From Planctomycetaceae bacterium (GTDB taxonomy: Bacteria > Planctomycetota > Planctomycetia > Pirellulales > Pirellulaceae): a DNA stretch of 36,538 nt. Location: NCBI GenBank assembly GCA_002862205.1, contig PKCN01000073.1, positions 1 through 36,538 on the forward strand. The letters are read 5' to 3'. Both the position numbers and the translations under genes were made by a program. Position 1 is the first letter of the stretch, and every line of letters starts with the position of its first letter. A model generated the notes under the pieces. It searched no databases, was not told the origin of the DNA, and saw nothing but the letters and a program-made list of their open reading frames with translations. Below are positions 16,870 to 24,230 of this stretch, piece after piece.

Positions 16870-18006
16870 ATGCTGAAAACACTCGACCTACGCGCGACAG
16901 ATGATCCACGAGACATCATTCATCGCACAGTACAAGCATTGGTGGAGGGGCAGGTGGTTGGCGTTCCCACGGACACCGTCTACGGGCTTGCCGTGGATGC
17001 TCTATCAGAGACAGCGATCGAAGAGCTTTTCCGGCTAAAGGGTCGTCAAGTCGATATTCCATTGGCAATTTCGGTTGGAAGCCGCGAATCAGCTGAAGAC
17101 TTTTTGTGTAAATCCTCACCTTTGGTCAGGCGTCTGAGTTATCGATGCTGGCCAGGCCCCCTGACATTGGTTGCGCCCTGTGATTCTCCAACCTCAGCGG
17201 TGACCCAACTACCGGAGTCTGTTCGCAGGCGGATCACTGGAGATTTTGGATGCGTTGGATTTCGGGTCGTCGACCACCGTGTTCTCGCACATATTCATCG
17301 TTTTTTGTCGGGTCCGCTGGTATTGACCAGCGCCAACGCCAGCGGACAAAGTCCTCCCACCACTGCCGAAGGGGTCGCCGACCAGTTCACCGATTCTTTA
17401 CCACTGCTGCTCGATGACGGGCCAACCCGTTATGGTGGGGCCTCAACGGTTGCCCGAGTTCAGGGAAACCGGCTGGAAATACTACGCGAAGGCGCCATCG
17501 AGCGTGCTGCCATGAACCAATTTGTAAAACCCGTGATTGTCATTGTCTGCACTGGCAATACATGCCGTAGTCCGATGGCAGAAACCCTGCTTCGGGAACA
17601 GATACGTCAGAAGCTGGGCAGTGAGGATAAGGTGCGAGTTCTCTCAGCGGGAGTTGCAGCGGGTGCAGGCAGCGGCGCAAGTCCGCAAGCGGTGGAGGTG
17701 ATGGGTTCACGGGATCTTGACCTGACGGGGCACAGCAGCCGTCCTCTGGATGATGCGGTGATGAATGTCGCTGACCTGATTTTGACGATGACCCGAGGTC
17801 ATCGAGCCGCGATCCTTGCCGCATGGCCGAACATGGAAGACCGTGTCCACACCCTCAGAAGAGATGGTGGCGACATCACGGATCCCGTCGGGATGCCCGT
17901 CGAAGTCTACCAATCTTGCTCGGAGCAGATCGATCAGGAGTTGTCAGCATGGCTGGAAGCTCTGGGCGATGATTTTTTCCCTATCAACGCCTCAAGTAAC
18001 GAGTGA
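16870..18006 (+). CDS. Fusion of Sua5/YrdC threonylcarbamoyl-AMP synthase and a YwlE-type low-molecular-weight phosphatase
   Basis: A 378-residue two-domain protein. Residues 1-212 are a Sua5/YrdC domain, which makes threonylcarbamoyl-AMP from threonine, bicarbonate and ATP for the t6A37 tRNA modification: GVPTDTVYGLAVDA (31-44), LKGRQVDIPLAISVGS (56-71), WPGPLTLV (94-101), GFRVVDHRVL (130-139), LTSANASGQ (152-160) and GGASTVARV (189-197). Residues 220-368 are a low-molecular-weight phosphatase: VCTGNTCRSPMAE (226-238) holds the CX5R loop with Cys227 and Arg233, and DITDPVG (335-341) the general-acid Asp338. The loop reads CTGNTCRS as in Bacillus YwlE, where the Thr favours phosphoarginine; tyrosine phosphatases usually have a larger hydrophobic residue there. 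rpiB follows eight bases after the stop. The phosphoarginine assignment is inference from this signature. Confidence 0.92.
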   Translation: MLKTLDLRATDDPRDIIHRTVQALVEGQVVGVPTDTVYGLAVDALSETAIEELFRLKGRQVDIPLAISVGSRESAEDFLCKSSPLVRRLSYRCWPGPLTLVAPCDSPTSAVTQLPESVRRRITGDFGCVGFRVVDHRVLAHIHRFLSGPLVLTSANASGQSPPTTAEGVADQFTDSLPLLLDDGPTRYGGASTVARVQGNRLEILREGAIERAAMNQFVKPVIVIVCTGNTCRSPMAETLLREQIRQKLGSEDKVRVLSAGVAAGAGSGASPQAVEVMGSRDLDLTGHSSRPLDDAVMNVADLILTMTRGHRAAILAAWPNMEDRVHTLRRDGGDITDPVGMPVEVYQSCSEQIDQELSAWLEALGDDFFPINASSNE

Positions 18007-18014
18007 GGTCAAAG

Positions 18015-18521
18015 ATGCTGAAAGTAACGATTGCAAGTGACCACCGTGGAGTACACATCAAAGACCGGCTCATTCAAGCTCTCCAAGCTCATGAATTCAC
18101 GGTTAGCGATGAAGGAACGGATTCTGAGAAATCCGTCGACTACCCTGATTACGCCCAGCAGGTTGCCAGAAAAGTCAGCAGCGGCGAAGCGGATCGCGGC
18201 ATCCTGATTTGCGGAACCGGGATCGGCATGGCCATCACAGCAAATAAATTTCCCCGCGTCCGGGCTGCGTCATGCTATGACGAAGTGATGGTCGAAATGA
18301 GTCGTCGGCACAATGATGTCAACATACTTTGTCTCCCTGGAGACATGATTGGCGATCGAACAATCGACGAATTGGTGCTGATGTGGCTCAATACCAAGTT
18401 TGATGGTGGACGCCATGCGGACCGGGTAAAGAAAATTTCCGAAATTGAATCGCACTCATGTAATGAACCTGACAAGGATAAGATTTCGCTTGATCCCTCC
18501 GCATCATCGCTCGACCCGTGA
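18015..18521 (+). CDS. rpiB: Ribose-5-phosphate isomerase B
   Basis: Interconverts ribose 5-phosphate and ribulose 5-phosphate in the pentose-phosphate pathway (LacAB/RpiB family). From the ATG at 18015 the product is 168 residues: MLKVTIASDHRG with the catalytic-site Asp9 and His10, VDYPDYA (41-47), ILICGTGIGMAITANK (63-78) with the catalytic Cys66 and the anion-hole glycines, RRHNDVNILCLPG (97-109), and a 25-residue hydrophilic tail beyond the usual ~145-150. A gagg ribosome binding site six bases upstream supports this start over the GTG at 18003. It is co-transcribed with the Sua5 fusion upstream, and its TGA overlaps the holB ATG by one base. Confidence 0.95.
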   Translation: MLKVTIASDHRGVHIKDRLIQALQAHEFTVSDEGTDSEKSVDYPDYAQQVARKVSSGEADRGILICGTGIGMAITANKFPRVRAASCYDEVMVEMSRRHNDVNILCLPGDMIGDRTIDELVLMWLNTKFDGGRHADRVKKISEIESHSCNEPDKDKISLDPSASSLDP

Positions 18522-19588
18522 TGAGTCAATCCAACACTGAAAAAACAGCTACTCCCGAACCAAAGTCCGTGACCGGACAATGGTCCGATTTGATCGGCCA
18601 CGAGCAAATACGAGACTGGTTTGCCACCGCAATTGAACAAGGACGGTTTGGTGGAAGCATGCTTTTTGTTGGCCCCCCGGGTTCCGGCAAACGAACGGCA
18701 GCGAAACTTCTAGCCAAAACTCTGCTGTGCGAAAGGGTCCCCCCAGCAAGCATGTCGCCCTGCGGAATTTGCAATTCATGTATTCAGGTTGAGGCAGATA
18801 CCCACATCGATTTGATTCGAGTGAGAAAACCCGACAACAAGTCGTTCATTCCGCTGGAACTATTGATTGGCGAACGCGATGCCAGAATGCAGGAAGGATT
18901 CTGTCACGACATCCAACTCAAACCACTCATTGGCAAACGAAAAATCGCCATTTTGGAAGACGGCGATTTCCTGCATGAGGCGGGGGCAAACTGCCTATTA
19001 AAAACACTCGAAGAACCTCCTGCTAATGCTGTCGTTCTGATCATTGGCACGGTAGAACAGCAACAACTTCCGACAATTCGATCTCGATGTCGCATCATCC
19101 GATTCGCGTTAAACAACGAGAATGCCAAACGCTTGCTGCGTGAAGTACATCAGATCGACGCCACTGACGAGCGTTTGAGTGAGGCAATCGAAATTGCAGG
19201 TGGCAACATGCATACCGCTCGAAGGTTACTCGACTCGGAAACCAATGAATTTCGCGACAAGTTGATCAACCTGCTTCTGGCTCAACATCCTGACCCCGTA
19301 AAAATCAGTCGCATCTTGACTGAACAGATTACTGCGGTCGGGAAGGACCCCAAGAAGCGACGTCATGCCTTGCGAGACGCACTTGCGATCGCAGTACAGC
19401 ATTTCCGCCGCAACTTGCGATCTGCTGCCTACAGCGAAAATTTCGACGCCGGACTGATGCCCCGACTTGACCGTTCTGTCAGAGCGATTCAAGAACTTGA
19501 TCGTAACGCGAATCAGTCAACACTCATCGAGTGTTACGCCGCCGACATCGCTGCCGGGATCACTGGCGAGCGGGGGGGAATCGGATGA
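18521..19588 (+). CDS. holB: DNA polymerase III delta-prime subunit (clamp loader)
   Basis: Part of the clamp-loader complex that opens the beta clamp and places it on primed DNA. The 355-residue AAA+ protein has SDLIGHEQIRDWF (22-34), a complete Walker A GPPGSGKRT (51-59), a four-cysteine zinc module (Cys70, 81, 84 and 87: CGICNSC), KRKIAILEDGDFLHEAGANCLLKTLEEPP as the Walker B/sensor region, and the SRC motif IRSRCR that supplies the arginine finger. E. coli delta-prime lacks an intact P-loop, whereas this one keeps it. The start ATG overlaps the rpiB stop (tgatg), a sign of translational coupling; a GTG three bases earlier is the alternative. It is the last gene of the Sua5-rpiB-holB operon, and its convergent neighbour begins 43 bp later. 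Confidence 0.9.
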   Translation: MSQSNTEKTATPEPKSVTGQWSDLIGHEQIRDWFATAIEQGRFGGSMLFVGPPGSGKRTAAKLLAKTLLCERVPPASMSPCGICNSCIQVEADTHIDLIRVRKPDNKSFIPLELLIGERDARMQEGFCHDIQLKPLIGKRKIAILEDGDFLHEAGANCLLKTLEEPPANAVVLIIGTVEQQQLPTIRSRCRIIRFALNNENAKRLLREVHQIDATDERLSEAIEIAGGNMHTARRLLDSETNEFRDKLINLLLAQHPDPVKISRILTEQITAVGKDPKKRRHALRDALAIAVQHFRRNLRSAAYSENFDAGLMPRLDRSVRAIQELDRNANQSTLIECYAADIAAGITGERGGIG

Positions 19589-21568: not shown

Positions 21569-23008
21569 TCACGCGTGCGCGGGGACCGGCATATCGGCCA
21601 CTTGGTAAGCCCTCGAACGGTAAAGGAAATCGATCAGATTACCCTCGTGAGGCTGCAACCAATTGAGGCGGTTGGTCGGGATCGGTCCGATGTTGACCCG
21701 ATCGATATCAACCGATGAGCCAGCAGCATGGATCAACTTGGGATCCTGAGTGAGAACCGTACCGACGAGCGTTGACCCAATTCGTTTGAGCATCTGATCC
21801 TGAGGGCATTCCACAACGCTTACAAACGGGAACATGTACTCCTTGGATGCAACCTGTCGGTCAGGTGAGTCAGCGTGTACCACCATCGGTCGCAAGTAAG
21901 CACAGTGCTCTCTCTCAACCAGCTTCTCGCCAAAGTCGGCGGTCATGTCTTCGACCCCACTCTCCGCCAAATCCTGCTGCACCATGGCATAAGTTCCATT
22001 CGCCATCGCTGGAACCGTGAACGCCGCCAGTTGTGCGTCAGGGTCGGACGGAGGTAACACATCAACCGTTCCAATTTTTTCGGCGATCGCTGCTGCGATC
22101 TCTCGAGTGTGTCGACTCGCCCAAATGCCACTGCAGTTGATACAGCTGCGTCCCGAATTGCTAAGCACGCTTTCGACGAGTAAATCAAGATAATTTTCCC
22201 AATCGTCGACGACATCGTCTCCGATCAGCACCTTTGAAAACCCAGGCCCATGGGCCTGAACGCGGGGATTACCTTCGTGCTGCGCCACCGTCTGCGCGCT
22301 ACCGAAGATCATACTACGAGGCGTTTTGGTCATGATTGCCCCACCGGCATCATGCCCACCTGGATACAACCCAAACGCTTCAGCTGGAATACCAGCCTCA
22401 ATGAACGCCGAAACCATCCGATAAGGTGTCCAGGGTTCTTGGGATCCCGGCTTCAATGCCAATCCGACCTGCAGCGGAATTGCGGGCAGCCAGAGTGTAT
22501 GGACGCCCGGTGAGTTATTCGGCAGCACCGCCCCCAGCACAGGCGTTTGAGACTGGTAACTTACAATCACACCTCGACCTTCCTCACCGTAGCCTCTTGA
22601 AAAAATCGACAAATCAAGTCCACGTGTCAAACAGTTCAAAATCTGGTCGATGTTACTCAACACGAAACTGTTCTTGGCCATATTCGACCGGCACATGTGT
22701 TCAGGCAACCCAGTGCTGGCTGATTGCTGATGCACGAATTGGTCGACCGACTGCAGGGAATCACCCACCGAGAGATCTGCCGATTCGAACAGGACAGCTG
22801 CCCTTTTGCAGCGTTCCACCAGATCTTCCGCCGAGAACTGAAGCAAAGCTTCTCTCGCTTTGTGCGCCTTCCGCATATCTCGCCCAACAATGCCACCGCC
22901 CACGTTACCCACCCGGGCAATGGGTTCACCGGTGTCAAAATGAACAACATCTGTAAAATCAAGGGACTCGTAGGGTTTTCCCCAACGCAAAGGACTGAGC
23001 GTGATCAT
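21569..23008 (-). CDS. Aldehyde-dehydrogenase-fold reductase (LuxC-like, acyl reductase candidate)
   Basis: A 479-residue member of the NAD(P)-dependent aldehyde dehydrogenase superfamily. LGAVLPNNSPGVHTLWLPA (about 158-176) and LALKPGSQEPWTP (183-195) form the cofactor region, FIEAGIPAEAFGLYPGG (202-218) follows, and NSGRSCINCSG (284-294) holds the active-site Cys (289, with a second Cys at 292). YMFPFVSVVE (398-407) and TVLTQDP are also typical. The gene is second in an operon with an acyl-adenylating enzyme, so it probably reduces an activated acyl group to an aldehyde, as LuxC does with LuxE; the substrate is unknown. The frame extends to 23077 and the extra 23 residues (MILLAFLLPVPSVFIA) look like a signal peptide, but the family is cytoplasmic and the ATG at 23008 fits the fold. 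If 23077 is used, the gap to the upstream gene is only 19 bp. Confidence 0.8.
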   Translation of the reverse strand: MITLSPLRWGKPYESLDFTDVVHFDTGEPIARVGNVGGGIVGRDMRKAHKAREALLQFSAEDLVERCKRAAVLFESADLSVGDSLQSVDQFVHQQSASTGLPEHMCRSNMAKNSFVLSNIDQILNCLTRGLDLSIFSRGYGEEGRGVIVSYQSQTPVLGAVLPNNSPGVHTLWLPAIPLQVGLALKPGSQEPWTPYRMVSAFIEAGIPAEAFGLYPGGHDAGGAIMTKTPRSMIFGSAQTVAQHEGNPRVQAHGPGFSKVLIGDDVVDDWENYLDLLVESVLSNSGRSCINCSGIWASRHTREIAAAIAEKIGTVDVLPPSDPDAQLAAFTVPAMANGTYAMVQQDLAESGVEDMTADFGEKLVEREHCAYLRPMVVHADSPDRQVASKEYMFPFVSVVECPQDQMLKRIGSTLVGTVLTQDPKLIHAAGSSVDIDRVNIGPIPTNRLNWLQPHEGNLIDFLYRSRAYQVADMPVPAHA

Positions 23009-23096
23009 ATCTGCAATAAAAACTGATGGGACGGGAAGTAAAAAGGCAAGCAATATCATGAATCGGCAGTTCGCCAATTCTCAGTAGCCGGAGTGA

Positions 23097-24230
23097 TCAA
23101 TAAACCCCAACCGTGGTCGCGCTGGCGAGTTCATGGAAAGGACGAACCCCACTAACGCCATCCCAAGGATACGTTTCAAAGGGAGCTTCTCTTTCTCCCT
23201 CATCACGCTCCATGAAGCCCGGCACGAAGAACTCGTCGGTCAGGGTGTAAAGTTTGACGCGACCAGTCTCACCGTACCCGACCTTCTGGTCGTAGTCATC
23301 GAAAGTGACAACCTCGGTGACTGCACGCGGTTGGGGTGCAAAGTAGGAGATTTTGTAGTTATCCGCCGCTGTGACTGGTTTGCTACAGGCAAGTCCCATG
23401 AGCGTGTTGCCATAAGTCGGTGTCATGTAGACACCGCCCTCTTCTGCCGGTCCGCCGAGTAATTCCTCGACGCAAAATTTGGTCCACTGGGGGGTGAATT
23501 CCGTACCTCCCGAGAAGATGCCGGTGATGCCACATTCCTGAAGGCTGGTTCCGCGTTCATCGAGGGCTTCGCCGAGCGACTCCAGAAGTTTTGGGGTCGC
23601 AAACATGCATTTTACATCGTGCCCAGCTGTCAGCACCGTGACCGCTTGATCGATGCAATGCTTCTTGTACTCCTCAAGATGATCCATCCAACCTTTCTTG
23701 ATCAGTTTGACAACCCAGCGTGGATCCAAGTCAATGCAGAAGCAAATCCCGCCACGATACTGAGCGAGATGTTCAACAGCTAGCCGCAAACGCCGAGGTC
23801 CACTTGGCCCAAGCATGAGCCAGTTCGACCCTTGGGGGAAGTATTTTTCTGGAAGCGTATCACTGAACAATTCGTAGTCTTTCCAATGGTCCTCGACGAC
23901 GACACGACTCTTCGGAATCCCTGTCGTTCCCCCGGTTTCGAAGACATAAGTCGGTTTGTTGGCGTGTCCTTTTGGAACCCAACGCCGCACTGGGCCACCA
24001 CGGAGCCACTCGTCTTCAAAGTGAGGAAATTTTTTCAGGTCGTCGAACGACTTGACGTCGGTGAGCGGATTAAAGTTGAGCTCAGCCTTTTTTTCCAGCC
24101 AAAACGGACTCCCGGTCTCTTCGCTGAAATGCCAATGCACCGTCTTCACGGTGTGTTCGTCGAGTCGTGCCCGTGCATCTGATGCCTGTTGGGCTACTTC
24201 TTCGCTCACGGTGTAATCCGCCGTACTCAT
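23097..24230 (-). CDS. Acyl-adenylate-forming enzyme (LuxE / phenylacetate-CoA-ligase-like)
   Basis: A 377-residue member of the ANL adenylating superfamily. YVFETGGTTGIPKSRVV (95-111) is the ATP-binding P-loop (TGGTTGxPK), IFSGGTEFTPQW (238-249) the following strand, MTPTYGNTLMGL (269-280) the A5-type motif, and GYGETGRVKLYTL (318-330) with ERDEGER (341-347) the region preceding the C-terminal domain. At 377 residues it is shorter than phenylacetate-CoA ligases (~430) and close to LuxE (~370), which activates fatty acids and passes them on through a cysteine; several cysteines are present (163, 165, 192, 208, 233, 253, 282), but I cannot say which would act. It is the first gene of a two-gene operon with the ALDH-fold reductase, suggesting joint reduction of a carboxylic acid to an aldehyde. 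The actual acid is not indicated by the sequence. Confidence 0.8.
   Translation of the reverse strand: MSTADYTVSEEVAQQASDARARLDEHTVKTVHWHFSEETGSPFWLEKKAELNFNPLTDVKSFDDLKKFPHFEDEWLRGGPVRRWVPKGHANKPTYVFETGGTTGIPKSRVVVEDHWKDYELFSDTLPEKYFPQGSNWLMLGPSGPRRLRLAVEHLAQYRGGICFCIDLDPRWVVKLIKKGWMDHLEEYKKHCIDQAVTVLTAGHDVKCMFATPKLLESLGEALDERGTSLQECGITGIFSGGTEFTPQWTKFCVEELLGGPAEEGGVYMTPTYGNTLMGLACSKPVTAADNYKISYFAPQPRAVTEVVTFDDYDQKVGYGETGRVKLYTLTDEFFVPGFMERDEGEREAPFETYPWDGVSGVRPFHELASATTVGVY

Follow-up and report, generated by a model that had tools for sequence, protein, structure and literature searches.

Which kind of phosphatase is joined in one polypeptide to a tRNA-modification enzyme, and why the two are joined, are the questions raised by a gene of a Planctomycetaceae bacterium (NCBI GenBank assembly GCA_002862205.1) lying in a stretch of 36,538 nucleotides (contig PKCN01000073.1, positions 1 to 36,538 of the forward strand; the whole stretch is hereafter called the window). 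The gene encodes an N-terminal domain of the Sua5/TsaC family, the threonylcarbamoyl-AMP (TC-AMP) synthases of tRNA N6-threonylcarbamoyladenosine (t6A) formation, fused to a low-molecular-weight phosphatase (LMWPc) domain. The domains and their phylogeny, the gene neighbourhood, the partners encoded in the genome, the pattern of catalytic-residue loss and the selection on the dead Sua5 domain were established here; what either enzyme does, on which substrate, and whether one domain acts on the other are inferred from them. On this reading, the C-domain is quite probably a YwlE-type phosphoarginine phosphatase opposing the arginine kinase McsB, with a Sua5 domain that would be an enzyme in some lineages and a non-catalytic partner in others.

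Both halves of the protein were recognized by Pfam, PF01300 matching the Sua5 part (E 1e-42, 146 bits, cut-off 25.1) and PF01451 the phosphatase part (E 6.1e-28, 98.3 bits, cut-off 23.2), and every motif on which an earlier note on this DNA had based the fusion was found, i.e. GVPTDTVYGL, WPGPLTLV, TSANASG, CTGNTCRS (residues 227–234) and TDP (337–339). KxR and SxN form the catalytic tetrad of Sua5/TsaC according to passages of PMC10321239 and PMC9654439, and the window's N-domain combines its PF01300 match with all four residues (K57, R59, S154 and N156). It scored narrowly below the cut-off of the NCBIfam equivalog TIGR00057 (119.4 versus 123.2 bits), and the Pfam scan gave no Sua5_C match in the fusion protein. 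The next gene, which the same note had called rpiB, was identified as such by PF02502 (182.2 bits) and TIGR01120 (166.8 bits, cut-off 138.65).

The C-domain is supported as YwlE type rather than tyrosine-phosphatase type, in keeping with how its loop had first been read. Its closest solved structures were B. subtilis YwlE (1zgg/4kk3) and, tied with it, 4egs, a T. tengcongensis LMWPc deposited as RpiB (both E 2.3e-23), with Wzb (3.6e-15) and the arsenate reductases (7.9e-10 or worse) more distant. According to a passage of PMC8001253 that reports on Fuhrmann et al. 2013, YwlE is steered towards phosphoarginine by threonine at PX5 of the loop and towards phosphotyrosine by isoleucine. PX5 of the window domain is Thr231 and its acid loop reads DPVG, not DPYY; neither mark of the low-molecular-weight protein-tyrosine phosphatases (PTPs), Ile at PX5 or a DPYY-type acid loop, was found in it. 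Both were found in one of its paralogues (L002, loop CMGNICRS with DPYYG) among the three LMWPc matches of the genome, which comprise the fusion and two paralogues; the third match, with the loop CTGNSCRS and CTGNSCRSQMAEG, is presumably of the arsenate-reductase (ArsC) type. In a tree of 88 domain rows, whose bootstrap had not fully settled, tyrosine phosphatases were split from all YwlE-type domains at support 100/99, the opposite of the placement within tyrosine phosphatases that the earlier note had named as grounds for giving up the assignment. The tyrosine-phosphatase side held the genome's own paralogue, nine planctomycete paralogues, YfkJ, slr0328, an Entamoeba PTP and E. coli Wzb, while the window domain fell inside a planctomycete cluster of 38 rows (98/95), made up of 33 fusions including the window's, four stand-alone proteins and one fusion from a second phylum; the neighbouring group of this cluster was Firmicute YwlE (88/81). 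The window thus presents the C(X)4-C-R-S loop, the DP acid, Thr at PX5, the tree grouping and a genomic arginine kinase, all marks of the YwlE family.

That the C-domain is instead a low-molecular-weight tyrosine phosphatase or an arsenate reductase is very unlikely and was rejected on the tree and the paralogues, although the Pfam family is named phosphotyrosine phosphatase, the best NCBIfam matches, both below cut-off, were Wzb (66.4 of 243 bits) and arsenate reductase (57.1 of 215), the clade is not uniform at the loop residue and the fold does not separate the families. By Foldseek, YwlE 4etn aligned at TMt 0.90 (root-mean-square deviation (rmsd) 1.6) and 4egs at TMt 0.92, but the TMt ranges of YwlE and Wzb chains overlapped (0.85–0.90 for each), so that Wzb fits the domain about as well as YwlE and fold cannot decide specificity; the top hits were whole Sua5 structures with both domains aligned (rmsd 16–17), which is no basis for a phosphatase in the pose of the SUA5 domain. 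Set against these points are the 100/99 split, Thr at PX5, DPVG in place of DPYY and the separate PTP and ArsC-like paralogues in the genome; the four ArsC-type rows joined the YwlE side by a long branch with low support (87/46). As a separate observation, the fusions L069 and L070 carry the loop CTGNTDRS, in which Asp replaces the second loop Cys, so that a cysteine which might act as redox partner would be missing.

The earlier note, seeing no McsB in the window, had asked about a phosphoarginine system in this planctomycete, and a search of the genome assembly (7.77 Mb, 451 contigs, 98.7% complete, 2.88% contamination) found the kinase outside it, together with mcsA and ClpC. McsB matched PF00217 (236 bits) and the NCBIfam protein arginine kinase model NF002194 (459.2 versus cut-off 385), remained below a second model, NF053707 (383.7 of 500), and has the kinase motif CPTNVGTGLR; mcsA lies directly upstream with a 4-base overlap, its product falling below the cut-off of the McsA model NF053706 (102.9 of 210). 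A Clp ATPase that carries a UVR motif (ClpC) has two GTEHILLGL repeats in its N-domain, as have four Firmicute ClpC, in two of which one Ile is Val (GTEH[IV]LLGL). In B. subtilis ClpC, these repeats bind phosphoarginine. Two phosphoarginine sites in that N-domain are described in a passage of PMC9604228. A further Clp open reading frame (ORF) is ClpB; contig C1 carries mcsB and contig C14 the ClpC gene. Given mcsA–mcsB and a UVR-bearing ClpC, a phosphoarginine system is likely present at the gene level. In such a system, Cys227 would attack the phosphorus of phosphoarginine, Arg233 and the loop would hold the phosphate, Asp338 would act as general acid and Thr231 would favour phosphoarginine over phosphotyrosine; the C-domain would then remove marks set by McsB, which is encoded with McsA elsewhere in the genome, and rescue marked proteins from ClpC.

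The fusion is widespread in Planctomycetota. Near-full-length matches (from query position ≤64 to ≥316, counted by hand) occurred in at least 145 of 294 planctomycete genomes, three of these rows being interrupted by a single in-frame stop. Searching 65 genomes with a profile added 22 fusion matches, of which one was in the first count already and one contains an in-frame stop; the total is therefore at least 166 of 294, among them some one-contig genomes. The survey that the earlier note had called for therefore disposes of the assembly artefact that it had considered. McsB was found in 280 of the 294 genomes and in 160 of the at least 166 with the fusion. Seventy fusion loci were fetched, all picked from rows already spanning both domains, and all 70 held both domains in one frame and kept D-P; in 51 of them rpiB lay on the same strand within the fetched stretch.

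The window's genome holds a second PF01300 protein, L346 (191 bits), which is complete and carries Sua5_C (62.8 bits), so the N-domain of the fusion, with its tetrad intact, could make TC-AMP for t6A and the second Sua5 could do so too. It is possible that L346 is a contaminant, given the 2.88% contamination of the assembly: its GC content is 51.8% versus 53.4% of the window, and its tetranucleotide correlation 0.815 versus 0.826–0.870 of five own loci, a weak test since L010, a locus of similar GC but from a different genome, reached 0.829. The 70 fusion genomes were searched for a second, non-fused Sua5; PF01300 ORFs of ∼760–1070 aa were taken for HypF from their length and excluded (4/4 of those scanned were HypF), and a 34.7-bit hit in G140 (243-aa ORF) and sub-cut-off hits in G259, G245 and G030 were not counted. 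A second Sua5 (≥183 bits) was present in 23 genomes and not found in 47, and the fused domain scored lower against PF01300 in the former (22.7–148 bits, median 72) than in the latter (119.9–182.5, median 151; Mann-Whitney 6e-10). The complete KxR/SxN tetrad was seen in all 23 separate Sua5 proteins and in 39/47 fused domains without a second copy, versus 1/23 with one. Counting the tetrad as lost when two or fewer of its four residues were left, 22/23 fused domains beside a second Sua5 had lost it versus 2/47 without (G188 and G274; Fisher 7e-15), with the same counts after re-alignment; Thr at PX5 of the phosphatase was kept in all 23. A first tetrad count over 154 fused domains (70 with all four residues), made on a looser alignment and mixed sources, was replaced by these figures. 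The tetrad was also intact in L237, a close relative whose Sua5 domain is 80% identical. The pattern suggests that the fused Sua5 is kept intact where it is the sole copy, and that beside a second Sua5 it would lose its catalytic residues and stay on as a constrained non-catalytic partner.

Constraint on the tetrad-less domain was estimated by dN/dS (NG86) in close pairs (>70% identity) from lineages missing two to four tetrad residues; nine pairs with dS <1.5 were used, two others had dS >2 (dN/dS 0.05 and 0.06) and three were uncomputable. In the nine pairs the dead Sua5 domain gave 0.06–0.19; set against the phosphatase of the same proteins, the values were 0.10 versus 0.09 in L014/L015, 0.06 versus 0.03 in L011/L013, 0.10 versus 0.03 in L118/L120, and 0.11–0.19 versus 0.09–0.20 in six pairs of family f5 (L102, L103, L115 and L117). 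Two comparison pairs of fusions without a second Sua5 (L024/L028 and L069/L070) gave 0.19 and 0.24. The tetrad-less Sua5 domain thus evolves under purifying selection, a constraint that would hardly serve TC-AMP synthesis.

What the constraint serves bears on a regulatory fusion, in which the Sua5 domain would sense ATP, threonine or TC-AMP, or dock on the translation apparatus, and so steer the phosphatase, the loss of catalysis beside a second Sua5 freeing it for this task. Such steering is possible if rather doubtful: at least two tetrad residues were lost in 22/23 cases with the domain still attached and constrained and PX5 Thr kept throughout, yet purifying selection may merely reflect the needs of folding, and in nine more distant pairs from genera g6 and g8 the dead domain diverged more than the phosphatase (24–46% versus 52–71% identity). 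In its most specific form, the Sua5 domain in several second-Sua5 lineages would be a pseudoenzyme, catalytically dead yet kept by selection, through which the phosphatase is regulated or targeted and which senses nucleotide, threonine or translation state; we consider this unlikely.

Outside the phylum, the gene row appears older than the fusion. Scanning the genome collection with GNTCRSPM yielded at least 588 relatives, and among the best 80 that were kept, mostly planctomycetes, 63 were fused to Sua5 and 61 had rpiB in the locus. The genes sua5, ywlE and rpiB adjoin but are unfused in Kiritimatiellaeota L203 and Carboxydocella L235, and the Bacillus order that had been cited in the earlier note was seen in B. 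mojavensis (L218), with sua5 upstream of ywlE and rpiB 89 bases downstream. In Ructibacterium gallinarum (Bacillota; L238:4972-6420), YrdC, Sua5_C and LMWPc occur in one protein, an architecture unlike the planctomycete one, and this fusion is therefore probably independent. McsB was present in 20/21 genomes tested among the relatives, the miss being a 2.4-Mb metagenome-assembled genome. In a second phylum, that of L203 (194 genomes; taken as Verrucomicrobiota in the wide sense), YwlE-type domains stood alone or with Sua5, with serine hydroxymethyltransferase (SHMT, GlyA), or as LMWPc-RpiB-SHMT, and the McsB family was found in 185/194 genomes (154 strong and 31 weak matches). Strong YwlE and strong McsB matches occurred together in 149 genomes, YwlE only in 4, McsB only in 5 and neither in 36, i.e. 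strong McsB in 149/153 strong-YwlE genomes versus 5/41 others (Fisher 3e-29, with kinship ignored; thresholds of E ≤1e-19 for YwlE and ≤1e-40 for McsB set by eye after viewing the tables, and counts made by hand).

Two further observations were made in this phylum. The 31 genomes with weak-only PF00217 matches (E 5e-9 to 8e-36; e.g. G340, G352, G388 and G506) likewise had weak or absent YwlE matches, and these kinases are perhaps decaying McsB. The LMWPc-RpiB-SHMT triple fusion was Pfam-confirmed in L295:1370-3547, with RpiB-bearing frames of 729–796 aa in L295, L298–L303 and L305 and similar frames in L250, L258 and L267; L288, from a 0.9-Mb genome, has LMWPc-SHMT without RpiB, PX5 in these proteins is often Ile or Val, and no account of the triple fusion was found in the open-licence PubMed Central (PMC) literature.

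These arrangements bear on whether the planctomycete protein is an ordinary fusion of neighbouring genes, a TC-AMP synthase and a phosphoarginine phosphatase made together from an old shared row with no biochemical coupling, an account whose chances fall somewhat short of even. It accommodates the unfused sua5-ywlE-rpiB rows of L203 and L235, the frequency of rpiB among the best relatives, the varied partners (LMWPc-RpiB, as in the planctomycete G278 in place of the Sua5 fusion, LMWPc-SHMT, LMWPc-RpiB-SHMT, and Sua5 plus Sua5_C plus LMWPc), and the four planctomycetes with a stand-alone YwlE-type protein beside a separate Sua5 (G231, G242, G251 and G262). A role-less dead domain should decay freely, however, yet its dN/dS was 0.06–0.19 versus 0.19–0.24 in the comparison pairs, which counts against mere chance joining, and AlphaFold2 predicted the entire fusion protein at pTM 0.91 (mean pLDDT 95.7; 58 homologues). 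The direct tie of phosphoarginine control to t6A formation that the earlier note had suggested is only partly supported: the conserved order and the fusion itself stood, and the second Sua5, the tetrad loss in 22/23 and the other partners (RpiB and SHMT) spoke the other way; tetrad loss and varied partners fit an old shared row and a partner-tolerant phosphatase better than a fixed t6A-phosphoarginine enzyme. With the phosphatase as the retained part, and the Sua5 part probably an enzyme where it is the sole copy and a constrained passenger or partner beside a second one, strict coupling is not needed to explain the fusion, which would derive from the old row sua5-ywlE-rpiB.

Several results weigh against a YwlE-type phosphatase that opposes McsB and is attached to a Sua5 domain whose catalysis depends on copy number. 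The window fusion is itself the sole exception among the 23, its tetrad intact despite the second Sua5. In G274 (L006, L380 and L381), close to the window, three tetrad residues are lost and one is left, and no second Sua5 was found in this draft genome, so that either a contig is missing or G274 is a case against the loss rule. Along the tree the two states changed ∼8 and ∼9 times, with 4 supported independent pairs of which ∼3 agree, which has no statistical power. PX5 is Thr in 64 of the 70 fusions, Ser in 4 and Leu in 2, and among the 68 highest-scoring second-phylum YwlE-type domains it is Thr in 53, the other 15 having Ile, Val, Ser or Gln and in several cases belonging to McsB-bearing genomes; the residue therefore serves as a guide and not a rule. 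Six of the 166 fusion genomes lack an McsB match (G053, G102, G162, G189, G219 and G263), and since 280/294 planctomycetes have McsB anyway, co-occurrence within the phylum says little and was dropped as proof. In families f44 and f75, McsB was found in 18/18 genomes tested and LMWPc was unmatched in 15/18, so the kinase can do without such a phosphatase. Finally, PF00217 matched 0/14 control genomes, among them B. subtilis, which has McsB according to a passage of PMC8370763; Bacillus-type genomes outside the control set did match, hence the search works and the control copy seems to be without the gene. PF02861 (Clp_N) was also unmatched in the B. subtilis control genome, and that copy may lack the mcsB-clpC stretch.

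The features of the locus are collected in Table 1. Given their 4-base overlaps, the fusion gene, rpiB and the delta′-like gene probably share one transcript. Elsewhere in the window, an aldehyde dehydrogenase-like ORF adjoins one with a sub-cut-off AMP-binding match (21569-23077 and 23097-24230, minus strand), possibly an acyl-CoA reductase and its activating enzyme.

Table 1. The fusion gene, its domains and motifs, and the genes downstream (window coordinates)
Feature	Position	Strand	Details
Fusion gene, Sua5/TsaC + YwlE-type LMWPc (predicted)	16870..18006	+	ATG start, 378 aa + stop
Sua5/TsaC (YrdC) domain	16936..17493	+	aa 23-208, PF01300
K57-G-R59, KxR half of Sua5/TsaC catalytic tetrad	17038..17046	+	intact; sequence
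S154-A-N156, SxN half of tetrad	17329..17337	+	intact; sequence
LMWPc domain, YwlE type (predicted)	17536..17955	+	aa 223-362, PF01451, solved relatives, tree
Phosphate loop C227-TGNTC-R233-S234	17548..17571	+	sequence; T231 (17560-17562) = PX5 selectivity position
D338-P339, expected general acid	17881..17886	+	sequence; kept in 70/70 fusions
rpiB	18003..18521	+	GTG start, 172 aa; 4-base overlap with fusion gene
DNA polymerase III delta′-like gene	18518..19588	+	PF13177 6.3e-36; overlaps rpiB by 4 bases

New in this analysis are the second complete Sua5 in the genome and the tetrad-loss pattern among the 70 fusion genomes. In the open-licence PMC literature, no report was found of a Sua5-LMW phosphatase fusion, of Sua5 with tyrosine phosphatase in planctomycetes, or of at least two of ywlC, ywlE and ywlF treated together; McsB or arginine phosphorylation with planctomycetes gave PMC4395418 only, the words being confined to a legend and references, and the main texts of PMC10321239 and PMC9654439 mention neither phosphatase nor planctomycet. 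The protein phosphoarginine literature found concerns Firmicutes, plus one report from Mycolicibacterium smegmatis. With the kinase family in 280/294 planctomycetes and 185/194 second-phylum genomes alongside YwlE-type phosphatases, large non-Firmicute groups become testable for arginine phosphorylation, and the fusion offers repeated natural experiments in which a phosphatase-fused tRNA-modification enzyme is, or is not, relieved of catalysis by a second copy. A pseudoenzyme sensor, if real, would couple phosphoarginine removal to nucleotide, threonine or translation state in a phylum where nearly every genome encodes the arginine kinase.

Among known systems, YwlE of B. subtilis and Geobacillus (1zgg, 4kk3 and 4pic) shares with the window phosphatase the LMWPc fold, the CTGNTCRSPMAE loop and the DP acid, has sua5 upstream and rpiB downstream (B. 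mojavensis) and McsB in the same genome, and forms the neighbouring tree group; deletion of ywlE in B. subtilis 168 is reported in PMC8370763 to bring heat sensitivity. The window phosphatase, whose activity is predicted, differs in being covalently joined to a Sua5/TsaC domain and in its planctomycete host. T. tengcongensis 4egs is likewise a YwlE-type domain, 35–40% identical, but its deposited name ties it to RpiB, whereas the window domain is tied to Sua5. With the TsaC/Sua5 TC-AMP synthases (1hru, 6f87 and 9dsq) the N-domain shares the YrdC fold and the intact KxR/SxN; unlike them, the fusion has a phosphatase instead of Sua5_C, many of its relatives have lost the tetrad, and a second Sua5 is present. 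YciO, an inactive TsaC paralogue according to a passage of PMC10321239, is similarly a member of the Sua5 family that lacks TC-AMP function and coexists with a working Sua5/TsaC, but the dead planctomycete domain is phosphatase-fused and arises in several families. The Firmicute McsA-McsB-ClpC system is matched in the mcsA-mcsB overlap, the CPTNVGTGLR motif and a ClpC with two GTEHILLGL repeats; it differs in that the planctomycete mcsB and ClpC gene are on different contigs and that the C-terminal motif of the planctomycete McsB reads RNVERA, versus RDxRRA in four Firmicutes.

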